Shown here: positions 5,608-41,737 of the stretch, one piece after another
Position numbering within the stretch: the first letter of the stretch is position 1
Layout: every line of letters begins with the position of its first letter
Made by a program: the position numbers and the translations under genes
The notes under the pieces: model-generated
What the model was told of the DNA's origin: nothing
The model's database searches: none
The model's input: only the letters and a program-made list of their open reading frames with translations
DNA from: Trypanosoma brucei gambiense DAL972
Taxonomy: Eukaryota; Euglenozoa; Kinetoplastea; Trypanosomatida; Trypanosomatidae
DNA: 64,000 nucleotides
Direction: 5' to 3'
NCBI RefSeq assembly: GCF_000210295.1
Contig: NC_026741.1
Span: 1,612,001-1,676,000 of the forward strand

Positions 5608-6861
5608 ATGATGTCATCCTCAGCTTTTACGGCGGCGGCAATCGGTGAACGGCTACAAGTAGCACTGGAAGAAGCAACACGTCACCTCGAATGCGGTTGC
5701 TCCATAAAATGCTCGCTGGCAATATTACCAGACATCGCTCTGCAGGGGATGGCACACAGTTGGGGGATCGTTGACCTTATCGAACATTCACAGGGCAGCA
5801 CCTACGAGTTGGCTGTAGGTTTGGGAAAAGATGTGCTAAGGGAGGCCCTCGCAGATTTCTTACGTGAACAACAGAATTCCGATAGAAGAGAAGAGGCGCT
5901 GCCCCTCATAGCACCCGTTGTGCATAACCTGCCACGTTTCTCTGTAGTGCTGTTGCTCCTCATCATGCCTGCTCACAGCAGCCTGTGGAGTGCGAGACGA
6001 CGTTGGATAGAGACATGCACTGCAAACGGTGAAGATCATTCCCGCTCCTTCTTGTTTCAGGAGGTGCTCGTAACGTCTTTACTGCTAAACTTTTATTATA
6101 AAGTGCAGGAGGTCTGGGTTCATCGGTGGTGGGTAGTAGAACGGCTCTTATCGCATCCTGGTATAAACTTGGAGGTTTCCAACGACCACGACCGCGGTGT
6201 GCTGATGGAGGCCGCTGACAAGCATCCCATGAACTATAACGCCTGGAACTATCGCCGTCAGGTGTTCGAAAATATTTTGAACATCACACAAAACGCAAGT
6301 AGGTGCAGGTCATGCGCGTCAACACCTTCATTACTCCAGCAGGAGGTTGAAATCGCGCTGCGTTTTTTTGAAACCCACAACGGTGATACGTCTGCTGCGT
6401 CGTATCTTATTTTTCTTCTTCACAAGGCGGAGACCATCAGAAGTGACAGCGCAGAGGGTAAGTATAATCAGGATAGTGGTGTTTGTGCCGGTTCCTTAGT
6501 GCATAGTGTGTGGAAAAGGCTTATGTTAGCCAGTACACAAGAGTTGCGTCGGCACTGGGACAAGGGTCACGAAGCCGTCTGGGTGTTGCGTTTGGCACTC
6601 ATTCACTGGGCGCTTTGCATCCGCCCCATGTGCGGTTGGTCACTCGAGGATGAAATGCATCTCATATCAGTTTATATGGAATTGCCAACGCTGCATGATG
6701 AATGGGTTGGTTTGAGCGAAGTGACGTGGGTGGCGGCCTCAGGGAGTCCCTCATGGACTTCGTTTTATGCAGCACGGTACGGCGTTCAGTTGCTAAAATT
6801 AGTTACTAATGCGTGCCGTGGGAAGGGAAGAAAAGTTATCGACTCTGATGGCCACAAATAA
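5608..6861 (+). CDS. Prenyltransferase alpha-subunit repeat protein (PTAR1-like)
   Basis: A 417-residue protein with the tandem W-x-x-R helices of protein prenyltransferase alpha subunits: VWVHRWWVVERLL (about residue 170-182) and YNAWNYRRQVFENIL (about 210-224), with a weaker copy near 330 (AVWVLRLALIHW). The spacing and the presence of only two or three clear repeats resemble PTAR1-type proteins more than a canonical farnesyl- or geranylgeranyl-transferase alpha subunit, which has five or more. PTAR1-type subunits pair with a beta subunit in the type III geranylgeranyltransferase that acts on SNARE proteins in other eukaryotes. Two ATGs lie back to back at the start; the first is used. Role inferred from family only. 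Confidence 0.65.
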   Translation: MMSSSAFTAAAIGERLQVALEEATRHLECGCSIKCSLAILPDIALQGMAHSWGIVDLIEHSQGSTYELAVGLGKDVLREALADFLREQQNSDRREEALPLIAPVVHNLPRFSVVLLLLIMPAHSSLWSARRRWIETCTANGEDHSRSFLFQEVLVTSLLLNFYYKVQEVWVHRWWVVERLLSHPGINLEVSNDHDRGVLMEAADKHPMNYNAWNYRRQVFENILNITQNASRCRSCASTPSLLQQEVEIALRFFETHNGDTSAASYLIFLLHKAETIRSDSAEGKYNQDSGVCAGSLVHSVWKRLMLASTQELRRHWDKGHEAVWVLRLALIHWALCIRPMCGWSLEDEMHLISVYMELPTLHDEWVGLSEVTWVAASGSPSWTSFYAARYGVQLLKLVTNACRGKGRKVIDSDGHK

Positions 6862-30544: not shown

Positions 30545-31387
30545 ATGTTTGGCACGCCGGTTGAGAATCTGACGGCAAATCAGATCAAGGAAGAACTGCG
30601 AACTCTATACGGTGTCAGCGACTTCTCGGGATGCATTGAGCAAAAGGATCTTCAAGAGAAACTTGAAAAAACACGTGAAACGGAGCTCATCACACACGGA
30701 CTGAAGTATGGCCCGCTTCTGCAAATCGGCAACAGACAAAGCCCCAGTGGTATTGTGACCCTCACACACGGTTTGGGGGACTCCGCCAATGGTTGGGAGA
30801 GTGTTGCAGTGGAGCTTTCACGGCGCCTCCCACATCTTTTGTTTTTACTCCCAACAGCATCCATGCAGCCCGTCGGTATTAATGGAGGAGCAGTTATGAA
30901 TTCATGGTATGATATCAGAAATGTGAACTCAGGGAATGGAGTAACGGAGGATGCTGAGGCCATCATAATGTCAGCCAATTACCTCAAAAGTCTCGCATAC
31001 ACCGCGTCACGGCGCTACCAAGTACCTGCTGGTCGCGTGGTGTATGCCGGATTCTCGCAAGGTGCTGTTATTTCGCTCGCCGCAGGCCTGACCGCTCGCA
31101 TTGCACCAGCAGGTGTGGCTGCCTTGTCGGGATATTTCGCTGCCGCGGAGAAAATATTGCCGCAGCTGTGCAACAAAAGTCTACCAGTGCTCCTCTGCCA
31201 CGGCACGATGGACAACATCATCCCTTTCAGTGCGGCTGAGAAAACTAAGGAAACGTTGGAGAGCCTTGGCGTGGGCCCCGTCACGCTCTATTCCTACCCA
31301 ATGGAGCACTCCTCTCATCCCAAAGAAATTAATGACCTTGAGAAGTTTTTGCAGCAAGTCCTCCCCGGACCTTCATCGAAATCGTAA
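30545..31387 (+). CDS. Acyl-protein thioesterase / carboxylesterase (APT1-LYPLA family) with N-terminal helical extension
   Basis: A 280-residue alpha/beta hydrolase. The frame opens at a TTG upstream, but the first ATG is at 30545. Seen: the oxyanion segment LTHGLGDSANGW, the nucleophile elbow GFSQG with Ser171, the acid Asp223 in HGTMDNIIP, and the base His255 in PMEHSSHP, all in the APT1 order. Such enzymes remove palmitate from protein cysteines or act as lysophospholipases, usually in the cytosol. About 50 residues at the N-terminus (LTANQIKEELRTLYGVSDFS, then CIEQKDLQEKLEK) are extra relative to human LYPLA1 (230 residues). They resemble the SAP-like helical pair with a CxxK/E-type turn found at the ends of MANF/ARMET proteins and in several trypanosomatid proteins. 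Confidence 0.88.
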   Translation: MFGTPVENLTANQIKEELRTLYGVSDFSGCIEQKDLQEKLEKTRETELITHGLKYGPLLQIGNRQSPSGIVTLTHGLGDSANGWESVAVELSRRLPHLLFLLPTASMQPVGINGGAVMNSWYDIRNVNSGNGVTEDAEAIIMSANYLKSLAYTASRRYQVPAGRVVYAGFSQGAVISLAAGLTARIAPAGVAALSGYFAAAEKILPQLCNKSLPVLLCHGTMDNIIPFSAAEKTKETLESLGVGPVTLYSYPMEHSSHPKEINDLEKFLQQVLPGPSSKS

Positions 31388-31982: not shown

Positions 31983-32693
31983 ATGCGCCACTCCGTGAAG
32001 TGTTTAGCGGGTATCATGTTCACCACCCGGAGTCCACTACGGTCAGGCTACAAATATTTCGAAGATATGTTCCCCAAGCACGAGCCGGCACCTCGGTACA
32101 ACACCTACGAGGAACAACAGCGAGGCGCCACTGTTAAGTCATTAGAGCCACGGCGTCAACTTAGCGAGTCGGAGAAGCTCCACCATTTGCACGACTGGAA
32201 GAAAGAACAAGATGGCTTAACGCCTCCACCAGAGTTTGGTTGGCCAGAGGAGTGGGGTCCGGAACCCGGTGAAGAGGGCCATAGCGAGTGGTACAAGAAA
32301 AATCGCGTATATATGTCATATGAAGAAAAGGCAAAATATGACTTCCGTTTAGGTGTTCCGGTAGAGAAAAACTCGATGAGACATCAGGAAATGCCGTACC
32401 ACCGCCGTATGAAGGCCGCCTACCACAACCTACAGGAGGACAAACCGCAATGGTTCGACCCCCGGCAACGGAAATATTGGGCCCAATACTCTTACGAAGA
32501 TCAGCGTGACTCTGTGGCTAAGTCAAGGGATGATTACTTGCGCGAGTGGTTGGATAAGCCGGATGTTACACAAGAAAATGTGGCGAAGAAAATTGGTGAC
32601 TACAACGGTACAGCGAAGCACCAGAGTGTGAAACCGGTGCAAAGGCGGCCAGAGTGGGAGTTGGCTCCCCTACAGGGGAAGAAGAGTGATTGA
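31983..32693 (+). CDS. Probable mitochondrial protein, kinetoplastid-type, unknown function
   Basis: A 236-residue protein. The first 30 residues (MRHSVKCLAGIMFTTRSPLR) lack acidic residues and carry several Arg/Lys and Ser/Thr, typical of a mitochondrial targeting signal. The rest is highly charged and unusually rich in Trp, Tyr and Glu (for example FGWPEEWGPEP, PQWFDPRQRKYWAQYSYED), with no membrane span. Such composition is common among kinetoplastid-specific subunits of mitochondrial ribosomes and respiratory complexes. Assignment to either is inference. No catalytic motif is seen and I do not recognise the family. Confidence 0.75.
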   Translation: MRHSVKCLAGIMFTTRSPLRSGYKYFEDMFPKHEPAPRYNTYEEQQRGATVKSLEPRRQLSESEKLHHLHDWKKEQDGLTPPPEFGWPEEWGPEPGEEGHSEWYKKNRVYMSYEEKAKYDFRLGVPVEKNSMRHQEMPYHRRMKAAYHNLQEDKPQWFDPRQRKYWAQYSYEDQRDSVAKSRDDYLREWLDKPDVTQENVAKKIGDYNGTAKHQSVKPVQRRPEWELAPLQGKKSD

Positions 32694-35032: not shown

Positions 35033-36529
35033 ATGCCATTCCAGCTAAGCCGTCGTCTCGTGGTAGCTTCAGTGCGACAAATGCGCGTCAGAATTCCGTG
35101 CAGCCGATGTTATTGTTTGTACGAGAGCTGCCGGAGCTACCGACAGACGCCGTCTCTCTTTCCTCCACGTAAACTTTCCCAGGCAAAACAGAAGCCGTTG
35201 TTCCCTGGCATGTATCGCACGGTGAGACTGTTTGATGGTGAGCACACATACCATTACGGCCGGCACACCTACACTATCATGCGGGAGAGCCTCACATTTG
35301 CCATCATACCACTTGGTTGCGTAGCTGCTTATGCCGCCACTTACTTTGATCCCTTTGCGGCGGTTCCACTAGAACTTCAAGGGGCTTATCTCGTATTTCT
35401 TCTTATTGGTTCACGGTTGTACGCCCGCGGTCGCAGTTGTCGGACCGTAAAGGATCTTACGGGTCGCCATGCGGTTGTTACGGGCGGCACCAGCGGCATT
35501 GGGAAGGAAACGGCGGCCCGACTTGCTGCAGCGGGCGCCGATGTAACTGTTTTAGCCCGTAGCAGCTCCCATGCTGAGGCAGCGATAACCTACATAAGGC
35601 GTTCCGCTCATTGTGAAGGACAAGTGGTGCAATTTACCCCACTTGACCTCTCAGACTTTCTTGCAGTGCGCGATTACTGTAGGAGACTTCGTCATACCAA
35701 CACGCGACTAGATATTTTGGTCAACTGCGCTGGGGTTATGCACCAACGGCAAGTGATGTCACGCTGCGGTGACGATGAACAGCTGGCTGTGAACCTGCTT
35801 GGGCCGTACCTATTGACAGAAGGACTCCTTCCACTTATCGCAGAGAGCGGTGGCCGGATTGTAAACGTTTCGTGCTCTGCCCATGTAGCAGTGAGAGGAA
35901 ATATTGTGCAAACGTACCTTTCGGGTCGGGGGGTGTGGTCTCCACGAGTGCGTGGGAAGTTCGATGGACTTGAACAGTATGGGCTCACAAAACTTGGCTG
36001 CATTTACCACGCACAAGAACTCGCTAGTCGTTCCTACCACTCCACAACGAAAGGAAATGCATCATTTTGTCCAACCGATACGTCCCACCCCTCACTGGGC
36101 TCAAGTGCCATCAACAAAGGTAGTAACTTAAACCTTTATCATTACAAACATAACAGCGGCAACCGAGCGAGTAATAACAACGACAGCGGAGACGCGGGAG
36201 GTGATGATGAAGCTGGCGCGCCAAATTACACAACCTGTGTAGCCGTCCCAGGTGGTGTAGTGACTGGTATATACCGTTATGTGCCTCTTGCTGCCACATT
36301 TCGTTGGTTCCGTTGGATATACCTCCTCTTCATGCGTAGTGCCCGTGAAGGGAGTCAGACAGTAGTGGATTGCTGTCTAAGGGATGATATTGTGAATGGT
36401 GGGTACTATCAGAACTGTCGCTACGCACCCAGTGGACTTTCCGCCGCAGCCTGCAACATAGAAGAGCGGAAGAATGTTCTCACGTGGGTGAGACGTAAAA
36501 TGCAACCATATATGCAATGGGATAGATAA
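35033..36529 (+). CDS. Short-chain dehydrogenase/reductase, membrane anchored (second of a tandem pair)
   Basis: A 498-residue SDR paralogous to the preceding gene. The N-terminus (MPFQLSRRLVVASVRQMRVR) is basic and lacks acids, like an organellar targeting signal. Hydrophobic segments lie near 88-107 and 114-126. The SDR core has TGGTSGIG near 149, LVNCAGVM, and the catalytic pair Tyr316-Lys320 (YGLTK). Between the active-site helix and the following strand there is an insert of about 60 residues (about 340-400) rich in Ser, Asn, Gly and Asp (RASNNNDSGDAGGDDEAG). The insert is absent from its neighbour and is probably a surface loop. Substrate unknown. Confidence 0.85.
   Translation: MPFQLSRRLVVASVRQMRVRIPCSRCYCLYESCRSYRQTPSLFPPRKLSQAKQKPLFPGMYRTVRLFDGEHTYHYGRHTYTIMRESLTFAIIPLGCVAAYAATYFDPFAAVPLELQGAYLVFLLIGSRLYARGRSCRTVKDLTGRHAVVTGGTSGIGKETAARLAAAGADVTVLARSSSHAEAAITYIRRSAHCEGQVVQFTPLDLSDFLAVRDYCRRLRHTNTRLDILVNCAGVMHQRQVMSRCGDDEQLAVNLLGPYLLTEGLLPLIAESGGRIVNVSCSAHVAVRGNIVQTYLSGRGVWSPRVRGKFDGLEQYGLTKLGCIYHAQELASRSYHSTTKGNASFCPTDTSHPSLGSSAINKGSNLNLYHYKHNSGNRASNNNDSGDAGGDDEAGAPNYTTCVAVPGGVVTGIYRYVPLAATFRWFRWIYLLFMRSAREGSQTVVDCCLRDDIVNGGYYQNCRYAPSGLSAAACNIEERKNVLTWVRRKMQPYMQWDR

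Positions 36530-37873: not shown

Positions 37874-37918
<45 letters not shown>
37874..37918. repeat. Compound (TA)15(TG)7 microsatellite
   Basis: Thirty bases of alternating T and A pass directly into seven TG units. It is the longest TA tract in the window. Confidence 0.85.
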
Positions 37919-38119
37919 ACATGTATGTGTGTCTGAAAGGCATATAATAAAGCTTATATCAAATATGTTGTTGTTTTTTTTTTTTTTTCGTTGCTTATGG
38001 ATCATCCCTTACCCGCGTTTCCGCGATCGTGTGATGAACTTTTCGTTCTATTTATGATAGCGGTTTCTACTGTATTTGTTAGCGACCCGTGGCTCTTGTT
38101 TATATATCTTTATGGGCAT

Positions 38120-38166: not shown

Positions 38167-39886
38167 ATGGAAGACAATCTTGCGGCAGAAATTGCGCGAA
38201 TAGAGGCGGAGTTGGAAGCGGACCGACAGCAGCGCGAAAAACAACAACAACAACAACAGCAGCAGCAGCAGCATCAAATGAGCATGCAAAACATGATGCC
38301 CAGCTTTGGTGTATCCGCAGTTCCACAACCAATGCAACATCAACATCAGCAGTCACAACAACAGTCACAACAGCAAATGGGTGTATTGCATGGGCAAGTC
38401 AGTGGTTCAACATCACATGCGCCTGGTCAACCTCACCATTTCTCAAAGGATAGCGATGGGCGATCCATTTTTGTTGGAAATCTTCCTAAAGGTGATAATG
38501 GCGGACCCACAACCACGCCAGAGGAGTTGGCGCATTTATTTGCCGACTGTGGTCCCATCCTCAACTGTACGTTACTGCGCGATCGCACAACTGGTGAGTT
38601 GAAGGGCACGGCATATGTTGAATTTTCCACTTACACCGGAATGGGTAAAGCTATTGATACTAAAAACAACACCATGTTCAAGGGTAGTACTTTAATTGTA
38701 TGTTGACCGTGTGAGTTCCTTTACATAATGGGGCGCACTTTTATGTGTGCGTTCCCTTCAACTTCTCCCCACTTTTCCCCACTCCCCTCTACAAACAGGG
38801 GAACGAACTGAAGGGTGCGAGAAGAAGTGATTGAGTGAATAATAACAACAATAACAACAACAACAACATTTAAGTAAATAAATAAACAAATAATAGTGAA
38901 TAGTAATAGTGGTAATACTAGTAGTGATTTTAATTTCTTTTCTTTTCTTTTTTTTTGTTTTTTTAAAAAAAAAGAAAATCAAAATCAAAATCAAAATAAT
39001 AAAGAGAGTGAAAAACGTTAGCAGCATAATGACACAACCATTGAAAAATGCTTCACAACAAAAACAAACCAAACAATGGAAGAAAAATAATAATAATAAT
39101 AATATACTGGCGCTAACAGTACATACACCACTAAATGAAGTATTGGAAACGGGGTGGAAAGAAAACTTTTATTTAATATATATATATATATATATATCAA
39201 ATTACTGAGCAACAACAAAAATAACAATAGCAACAAAGAAATGCACTAAAAAACAAAAATAAAAAGAGAATATGGGGCTTTAGACCTCTTCTATCGTCAC
39301 CCACCATAGATGGCTTAGATTCACAAAAAAAAAAAAAATAAAAGAAAGAAAGAAAGAATATTGGTACTGTCACCAAAATTAACAAATATAACAATGATAG
39401 TGCAACAGTATCATCCACCAACAAAATATATATAAATATAAATAGCACGCGCAAAAAAAAAAAAAAGAACATACACAAACATTGCGTAAATGCGCTCATT
39501 CACTTACTTGCAATCCCTCAGCCGCTCCCCTCCTCCTCTCTTCATTCTCCTCTCTCATTTTTTTTAAATATATATATACTCATGAATCAATGTGAAATCA
39601 CTTCTTCTTCTTCCCACTCCTCCATTCTTTTTTTTTCTTTAATACTTCGATGGCTGAAAAGGTGACGAAAAAACGCTCATCATTCCGACCGGAACGAGCG
39701 CGTGGTGGACGTGGCGGCGGAGGGACCGGGCGGGGAGCTCAAATGCCTGATCCCTATCAAGCAATGATGGCACTTATGGGAATGGTGGCAGGCGGGGTAA
39801 TGGCGCGTGGTGGACGTGGCGGTGGTCGTGGCAGTCGGGGTGGAAATTCGCAGCGTGTGATGGGTGGATTTCAACCCTTTCAATAA
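38167..39886 (+). CDS. PABPN1-like RRM/RGG RNA-binding protein, predicted two exons (38167-38697 joined to 39662-39886)
   Basis: Read without splicing, the frame stops at 38704-38706, just inside the last RRM strand (GSTLI then V-C-stop). A GTATGT begins at 38698, exactly after the Ile codon. The first AG after the next strong pyrimidine tract is at 39660-39661. Joining the exons keeps phase and gives STLI-VTKKRSSFRPERARGG, the expected RRM end plus basic/RGG tail of nuclear poly(A)-binding protein PABPN1. The product is 251 residues. It has a short coiled helix (about 3-25, LAAEIARIEAELEADRQQRE), a Gln-rich tract with 10 consecutive Gln, and an RRM at about 97-180 (RSIFVGNLPKG as RNP2, KGTAYVEF as RNP1). 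An RGG tail with a Met-rich insert (QAMMALMGMVAGGVMA) completes it. If unspliced, the protein would be a truncated 179-residue RRM. It probably binds nuclear mRNA or poly(A). Confidence 0.75.
38698..39661 (+). other. Predicted conventional (cis-spliced) intron, 964 nt
   Basis: The donor GTATGT (38698-38703) equals the yeast consensus. The acceptor is a C/T tract of about 40 nt (39601-39640) followed by its first AG at 39660-39661; a possible branch site TTAAT lies near 39640-39644. The intron is phase 0. The body is AT-rich, with (TA)n at 39176-39197, a T-run/A-run junction at 38958-38973 and an A run at 39325-39338. The acceptor lies downstream of the only ATG (39650) that could start a separate 78-codon gene. 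Trans-splicing at this AG would therefore remove that ATG, which favours cis-splicing. Confidence 0.75.
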
Positions 39887-40242: not shown

Positions 40243-41322
40243 CTGCAGATGCCGTTGGGAGGACGAAGGTGGTACCGTAAGTCCAACACCGAAAGAAATA
40301 CGGATCTAAAGTCAACGGTGTGTGGATGGTTGTGTGGATAATACGAAACTAACAAATAAAATGAAGGTGAAACAATGGGGGAGGGGGGTGGAGATTAAAA
40401 AAAAGAAAAAAGTGAAGGAGGGTTGAAGAATGAAGAAAGAAAGAAAGAAAGGGGGTAACTGGTGTGGGCGCGAGAGGAGAAAGTGTGCTGAGAATAGGAA
40501 AAGTTGAATGGAAAGACAAAACAAAAAAGATGAAAAGTGTGTGGTACAAGTGATGAAGGTGTGGCGAGAAATGTCCCGATGCGCCATCATCACATTTGTG
40601 TACCATCACTTCTCCTTCCACGCTTTAGTTTGTTTTGTTTGTTTGTTTTTGTATTCGCTCTTATCCCTCTTTCCATTGCTTCAATGATGCTGTGGTGACG
40701 GAGAACCCTCTTGGGGGGTCCGGTTGCGTGGCATCGCTGCCCTTCTAACCGTTTCTTTCAGCGTGGTATCTCCTTCACATTCCCGAAGCCTCTTATTTTG
40801 CCTTTTTAAAGAAAAGAAAAAAAGAGAAAAAAGATAGAAAGGTGTGGGGAGTGGAGAAGAATTGGAAAAGGGATAGCGAAAACTATGGAGAAGATAAGCG
40901 ATGCAGGGAAACAAACTCACGCGTGCAGTTGCATGAGTGCCAGGTTGTTCAATCCCTTAACGAGAAGTGACAAAATAATATAACGAAAAGGGAAAAGGGA
41001 AATAAAGGAAACGAAAAGCATGTGACGGCAATATTTCCTCCCACTTCCACTTGCTGCATTTGGTACGTGCACCGCTCCATCAAACAAAACAGCTATGTTG
41101 ATAATGTCACGAATGTGCAGGTGGAACACGGTGGCTTGTGATAACTCTCCATGTCATTGATTTTTGTTGCTCTTCCATTCCTCAACCCCTCCCGCTTCTA
41201 CACTGTGCTTGACTTCTTTCTTTCTTCTTTTTTTTCTTTTCTTTTTCCCTCTCTCTCTCTTTCACTTTCACTTTCCCCTTTTGTCGTGACACACACACAC
41301 ACACACACACACACTTCACTAG

Positions 41323-41371: not shown

Positions 41372-41737
41372 ATGTCCCACAACCTATTTACTGAGGAAGA
41401 CAACAACAAGACCATCCGTATGGTCATTGGTGAAACCTTCACAATTGAACTTGAGAGCAACCCAACCACCGGCTACACGTGGCTTCGTTCAGGTCTCGCC
41501 GGTACCGAACTCAGCGATTGCACCTTCGCCATCCAAAGCAAATTTAACAACCGTGCGCCTCATGATAACCACAAGAACCACAGACGCCTATTGGTTGGTG
41601 CGGGTGGCACGATGGTACTCGAAGTGAAAGCCCTTAAAGCTGGGAAGCACACGCTTTCACTCGCTTACGGACGCCCATGGGTTGGATTCAATGCCGCAGC
41701 CAAACGTTACAACATTCACGTCGAGGCCACCGCATAA
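41372..41737 (+). CDS. ICP: ICP, chagasin-family inhibitor of papain-like cysteine peptidases
   Basis: A 121-residue protein without signal peptide that carries all three inhibitory loops of the chagasin/ICP family: NPTTGY (30-35), GAGG (76-79) and RPW (101-103). The immunoglobulin-like fold inserts these loops into the active-site cleft of cathepsin-L-type enzymes. In trypanosomes it controls the parasite's own lysosomal cathepsin L and cathepsin B. Length is typical (chagasin 110). The short 5' UTR and strong acceptor suggest good expression. Identification is firm from the motifs. Confidence 0.95.
   Translation: MSHNLFTEEDNNKTIRMVIGETFTIELESNPTTGYTWLRSGLAGTELSDCTFAIQSKFNNRAPHDNHKNHRRLLVGAGGTMVLEVKALKAGKHTLSLAYGRPWVGFNAAAKRYNIHVEATA

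Follow-up and report, generated by a model that had tools for sequence, protein, structure and literature searches.

The intron of the RBP20 gene in a Trypanosoma brucei genome and sequence elements shared among cis-spliced introns

Two reading frames on the forward strand of the window (the whole stretch of 64 000 nt analyzed here, C8:1612001-1676000) raise the question of whether they are two independent genes or the two exons of a single gene which is interrupted by a cis-spliced intron. A preliminary description of this DNA chose the second reading, proposed a conventional intron in a PABPN1-like gene and considered another such intron host to be notable. We reanalyzed the locus together with the genome assembly of 22,148,088 bases in 11 contigs and compared it with published work (cited by PMC number; each of these papers was available in part).

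Exon–intron structure and identity of the gene

The first frame (38167-38706) encodes an RRM and ends with ...STLIVC followed by a TGA at 38704-38706. This stop is located two codons after a GTATGT which starts exactly at a codon boundary (38698). The second frame starts at 39662, comprises 74 codons and a stop, as in the 75 codons counted before, and reads VTKKRSSFRPERARGG...GGFQPFQ. It directly follows the first AG (39660-39661) past a pyrimidine tract, while the preceding AG is found at 39520. The coordinates, the phase-0 donor, the position of the stop and the choice of the acceptor in the preliminary description all proved correct (Table 1). Joining both parts in frame yields a PABPN1-like protein of 251 aa with an RRM and an RGG tail, and by sequence the GT donor, the AG acceptor and the in-frame join leading to a conserved protein are what would be expected for a GT-AG cis-intron. 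The RRM_1 profile was matched by residues 101-176 of exon 1 with its positions 1-69 of 70, which means that exon 2 supplies the very end of the RRM and the basic/RGG tail and that no large piece is missing. The downstream frame had been described as carrying the missing RRM end and the RGG tail; this holds, with the nuance that the RRM is nearly complete in exon 1 already.

Table 1. Features of the locus and flanking landmarks (window positions; a slash marks the exon border)
Feature	Position	Strand	Details and basis
Landmark: Abhydrolase_2 lipase, Tb927.8.6390 (TbAPT-L)	30545..31387	+	family per PMC9693859; exact primer match
Exon 1, coding part of RBP20	38167..38697	+	177 codons: Q-rich N-terminus and RRM; RRM_1 E 1e-16
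Cis-spliced intron, 964 nt, GT-AG, phase 0	38698..39661	+	in-frame join, joined relatives, T. brucei RBP20 splicing in PMC12592628
5' splice site GTATGT	38698..38703	+	sequence; same hexamer at the DBP2B donor
Donor-proximal TGAGTTC, common to PAP1 and DBP2B introns	38712..38718	+	intron comparison
Polypyrimidine tract preceding the acceptor	39625..39640	+	sequence
In-frame ATG 5' of the acceptor	39650..39652	+	not in an RNA starting at 39662
3' splice site AG (GCTGAAAAG/GTG)	39660..39661	+	sequence
Exon 2, coding part and stop: KKRS motif, RGG tail, GGFQPFQ end	39662..39886	+	sole window frame matching the relatives' tails
Landmark: ICP, chagasin-family peptidase inhibitor, Tb927.8.6450	41372..41737	+	sole PF09394 match in the genome

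TA/TG repeats and long A/T runs, which are usual in trypanosome intergenic DNA, are present around the gene (window positions 37875-37920 and 39178-39198).

For the identification of the gene we used landmarks on both sides. An RNAi primer printed for Tb927.8.6390 (PMC9693859) matches the window exactly at 30788-30807, and the inhibitor gene downstream corresponds to ICP, which is Tb927.8.6450 (PMC2680270). The published ICP primer gave no match at up to two mismatches; by eye, the primer sequence is present in the window except for an additional A in one run (about 40387-40414). Between both landmarks we counted likely genes with starts at 31983, 33043, 35033, 37079 and 38167 as 6400-6440, so that the RRM gene, the fifth by count, receives the number 6440. 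This count is soft: before position 36500 it covers frames of at least 150 aa, and three forward-strand frames which by eye seemed unlikely to be genes were left out of it (36588, 98 aa; 40039, 100 aa; 41151, 158 aa, overlapping ICP). The two TCTP genes at C8:1737751 and 1739365 agree with the Tb927.8 numbering (gene numbers from PMC5992589 and PMC9165267). Elsewhere in the genome, 16 exact copies of the spliced leader (SL) were found on contig C9 and two poly(A) polymerase genes on C3 and C7; the T. brucei poly(A) polymerases are Tb927.3.3160 and Tb927.7.3780 (PMC4041458). On chromosome 8 (contig C8 of 11), the RRM gene is thus flanked by Tb927.8.6390 and Tb927.8.6450 as expected for RBP20; by its sequence it codes for an RNA-binding protein and is interrupted by a single cis-intron. 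Tb927.8.6440 is named RBP20 (PMC12592628). As in the published T. brucei RBP20, the flanking landmarks, the domain and the interruption of an RNA-binding protein gene by a cis-intron agree, and we observed no conflict with the available text of PMC12592628; the two were matched by landmarks and domain, and the present sequence may come from a different strain or subspecies.

The novelty of the locus did not withstand this comparison. The preliminary description correctly stated that only a poly(A) polymerase and a DEAD-box helicase gene (PAP1 and DBP2B) are classically described as cis-spliced, and an earlier RNA-seq study found only two cis-spliced genes, as far as its available part goes (PMC2936537); the accessible text of PMC11888146 (March 2025) still counts two. 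However, RBP20 was reported as the third cis-spliced trypanosome gene by Kostygov et al. 2024, as cited in PMC12592628 (2025), and three intron-containing kinetoplastid genes are given in PMC12621601. Since the RBP20 intron is in print, it was already known and is confirmed, not added, by our analysis: it is a real, ordinary spliced intron, published in 2024-2025 as that of the third intron-bearing trypanosome gene.

Relatives of the protein and conservation of the junction

A search with the exon 1 protein gave 34 relatives besides the window's own entry, including orthologues from T. congolense, T. cruzi and Leishmania. We then took residues 90-251 of the joined protein as the query of another search; 7990 candidates were scored, and among the best 120 of 409 matches we took the ten new entries ranking above the first fungal match (P0037-P0046), which were chosen before their sequences were seen. 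RRM and tail are joined, as judged by motif, in 12 of the 44 relatives (2 of 34 from the exon 1 search and 10 of 10 from the joined-query search, a set which leans to joined proteins because its query contained exon 2); an example is P0038, which reads ...SSLIVTKKRSAFRPDRARGGRGG... at this site. The joined protein is 61% identical to P0038 over 145 aa, through the junction, and its likeness to P0032 continues to the final GGFQPFQ. We further built a profile from ten joined tails, eight of them from the search whose query held exon 2 and two (P0032 and P0036) from the exon 1 search, and compared it with every stop-to-stop frame of 25 aa or more in the window (1656 in total). Exon 2 alone scored (E 3.1e-16; the next frame reached 0.15), which is more than chance; the preliminary description had said that the in-phase join, the donor and acceptor and the fit to PABPN1 are hard to explain by chance.

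In 30 of the 44 relatives the residues V-C were observed at the junction: 13 of these proteins stop right there, 15 continue as V-C-V-S and 2 as V-C-W, and this short or read-through form is the database record. The remaining two are neither joined nor show V-C (P0008 ends at V, P0035 differs). As V-C is the product of an unspliced GTATGT-type donor, the break appears to be common to Trypanosoma, Leishmania and other trypanosomatids, a reading made from proteins and not from their DNA. These data also bear on the idea that the window contains a frame-broken copy of the gene, i.e. strain-specific remnants of a once continuous frame. Such a copy would be compatible with the stops found in all three forward frames of the 964 nt and with the two frames lying apart, but named Trypanosoma and Leishmania species are among the relatives with the same V-C break, and exon 2 is still alike to P0032 up to the last residues. 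We rejected this explanation, whose probability we regard as negligible, because the same break recurs across genera.

The type of the protein was further assessed by comparison with known structures. Exon 1 alone matches 2jwn, a structure of embryonic PABP2, with E 4.8e-10, and the joined protein with E 2.6e-11 (domain E 3.1e-11), whereby the alignment crosses the junction into KRTN/KRSS. 2jwn is the best single domain among the five aligned PDB matches; 6r5k (Pab1) is nominally better, but its score is the sum of four weak domains. In fungal Pab2, 36 of 92 residues are identical. The match to 2jwn across the junction and the match to fungal Pab2 support a PABPN1-like RRM of the PABP2 type that runs into a K-R-S/T stretch, and together with the joined relatives they bear out the proposed conventional cis-intron in a PABPN1-like gene. 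Like PABPN1/PABP2, the protein contains a single RRM followed by the K-R-S/T stretch; unlike these, it possesses a Q-rich N-terminus and an RGG tail, and poly(A) binding by RBP20 is putative. The RBP20 protein is thereby corrected from 179 to 251 aa.

Cis and trans use of one acceptor

Is the locus nevertheless transcribed into two separate mRNAs? In this case one leader-spliced and polyadenylated RNA would encode a short RRM protein that terminates at 38706, and another, processed in the same way, would encode a separate RGG peptide or be a lncRNA. Each frame indeed has its own ATG (38167 and 39650, the latter in frame with exon 2 and reading MAEKVTKKRS...), the short protein is listed in many databases, and SL-exon 2 reads are known from T. 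brucei, where a previous annotation treated exon 2 as lncRNA KS17gene_2001a (PMC12592628). However, the ATG is located 12 nt before exon 2 and thus upstream of the acceptor, so that a leader-spliced RNA from 39662 loses it. Furthermore, relatives with joined RRM and tail exist, and the cis-splicing of RBP20 is documented by split reads and RT-PCR (PMC12592628), two of the checks which had been suggested for this locus. The joined relatives and the published split reads led us to reject two separate genes, which we consider highly improbable. SL reads at exon 2 in place of junction reads had been named as evidence against an intron; such reads do occur, but alongside junction reads, as SL addition at RBP20 exon 2 is a competing event (PMC12592628), and this test needs to be amended. 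The absence of the ATG from the exon-2 RNA fits the annotation of exon 2 as lncRNA.

We conclude, with a probability of roughly 97%, that the locus corresponds to RBP20 (orthologue of Tb927.8.6440) in a T. brucei genome, with one U2-type cis-intron (38698-39661) whose 3' site can be used in cis or in trans. Gene structure, junction and orthology by position were established here, and we infer the snRNP steps and the branch point. The RBP20 pre-mRNA would be cut from the polycistron by trans-splicing upstream of exon 1, and its GTATGT donor would be recognized as in PAP1 and DBP2B, by the U1 snRNP and then by U6. With its AG preceded by a pyrimidine tract, the 3' site is of the kind common in trypanosomes and should therefore be usable in both ways: cis use would join exon 1 to exon 2 and result in the 251-aa RRM-RGG protein, and trans use by the spliced leader would result in an RNA that consists of exon 2 only and lacks the upstream ATG. 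For T. brucei RBP20, cis-splicing is favoured by DRBD3, an RNA-binding protein whose depletion impaired it and raised the SL-exon 2 reads 6- to 8-fold (PMC12592628). U1 proteins were crosslinked at the donor of PAP1 and, in DBP2B, close to the donor (+11, +22), and depletion of U1C shifts PAP1 exon 2 to trans-splicing (PMC4041458). By analogy, the same U1 machinery may act on RBP20. A search of the genome with Rfam RF00003 gave no U1 snRNA match. For the known trypanosomatid intron no clear branch point is described in the available part of PMC2483917; within the last 45 nt of the RBP20 intron we observed a 9-nt run of pairs with U2 (GATGGCTGA), a value computed without shuffled control.

Sequence elements shared by the three introns

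Next to the RBP20 intron (964 nt, GTATGT...GAAAAG) we analyzed the introns of PAP1 (Tb927.3.3160; 651 nt, GTATGG...GTGAAG, joining ...ESDLDV/ALICPS) and DBP2B (Tb927.8.1510; 1301 nt, GTATGT...GAAAAG, joining ...VHRIG/RTGRAG) in the same genome, in which the SL RNA donor is GTATGA. Their boundaries were set by frame logic as for RBP20, and DBP2B was identified by its contig and the split DEAD-box frame. PAP1 shares with RBP20 a frame-restoring GT-AG intron, the GTATG donor and a TGAGTTC near the donor; DBP2B shares the GTATGT donor, the ...TGAAAAG/G acceptor and TGAGTTC. Both differ from RBP20 in carrying a 19-nt element, and the DBP2B intron splits a DEAD-box motif (HRIG/RTGRAG).

TGAGTTC occurs once per intron within 30 nt of the donor (PAP1 +7, DBP2B +22, RBP20 +15). 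Among 5000 dinucleotide shuffles there was no trio with a common 7-mer within the first 30 nt, the fixed GTATG being excluded. This test flatters TGAGTTC, as both the 7-mer and the 30-nt limit were fixed once the match had been seen. The pattern GTATGN{0,20}TGAGTTC has one match in the window with 0.11 expected, and 10 of 100 shuffles contained at least one. Genome-wide, GTATGKN{0,16}TGAGTTC was found at 22 sites compared to 14 for the reversed pattern. Regarding 1.5 kb on each side of the 22 sites, only those in PAP1, DBP2B and RBP20 lie at the end of an ATG frame which comes from upstream, measures 100 aa or more and stops at most 20 nt past the donor. A candidate for a fourth intron at C1:536572 was rejected; its stop lies 34 nt past the donor and the frame looked non-coding by eye.

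The 19-nt element, CGCAAC[C/G]ATACCATTTCAA, was found at C3:735911-735929 (-) in the PAP1 intron and at C8:352756-352774 (+) in the DBP2B intron, and the distance from the start of its 12-nt core to the intron end is 54 and 75 nt, respectively. The pattern CGCAACSATACCATTTCAA, which was built from these two introns, has exactly two exact sites genome-wide, one in each. No other genome site was found within two mismatches, which does not prove rarity; nine further sites, all at 3 mismatches, compare with two for the reversed control, and the core has five genome sites compared to three for the control. Among the nine, the site on C5 was inspected and dropped as it lies inside a long reading frame that is LRR-like by eye. 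When the PAP1 and DBP2B introns are compared over their 3'-terminal 120 nt, the best 19-nt match has 18 identical positions, and at most 15 were reached in 150 shuffles. For RBP20 the best 19-nt match is 15 with PAP1 and 14 with DBP2B, which equals the shuffle level, and its intron lacks the element, with a best match to the core of 8 of 12. Between the shared elements and U2, U6 or SL RNA we observed no convincing pairing; the longest run for the 19-mer is 7 nt (CATACCA with the SL donor, without shuffled control).

A speculative and rather unlikely proposal is that such marks outside the splice sites, with TGAGTTC present in each of the three introns and the 19-nt element in PAP1 and DBP2B, might keep the spliceosome on the cis path although nearly all acceptors of the cell serve trans-splicing, and that RBP20, without the second, would leak most to trans. 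This agrees with SL-exon 2 reads being abundant enough to quantify only for RBP20 (PMC12592628, as far as its available text goes), which could also be explained by transcript abundance.

Taken together, reading the raw sequence alone recovered a real intron which is not reported in the available part of the transcriptome study PMC2936537. What remains of interest are the two shared elements. If functional, they would provide an approach to the question of how a cell that relies on trans-splicing distinguishes its few cis-introns.
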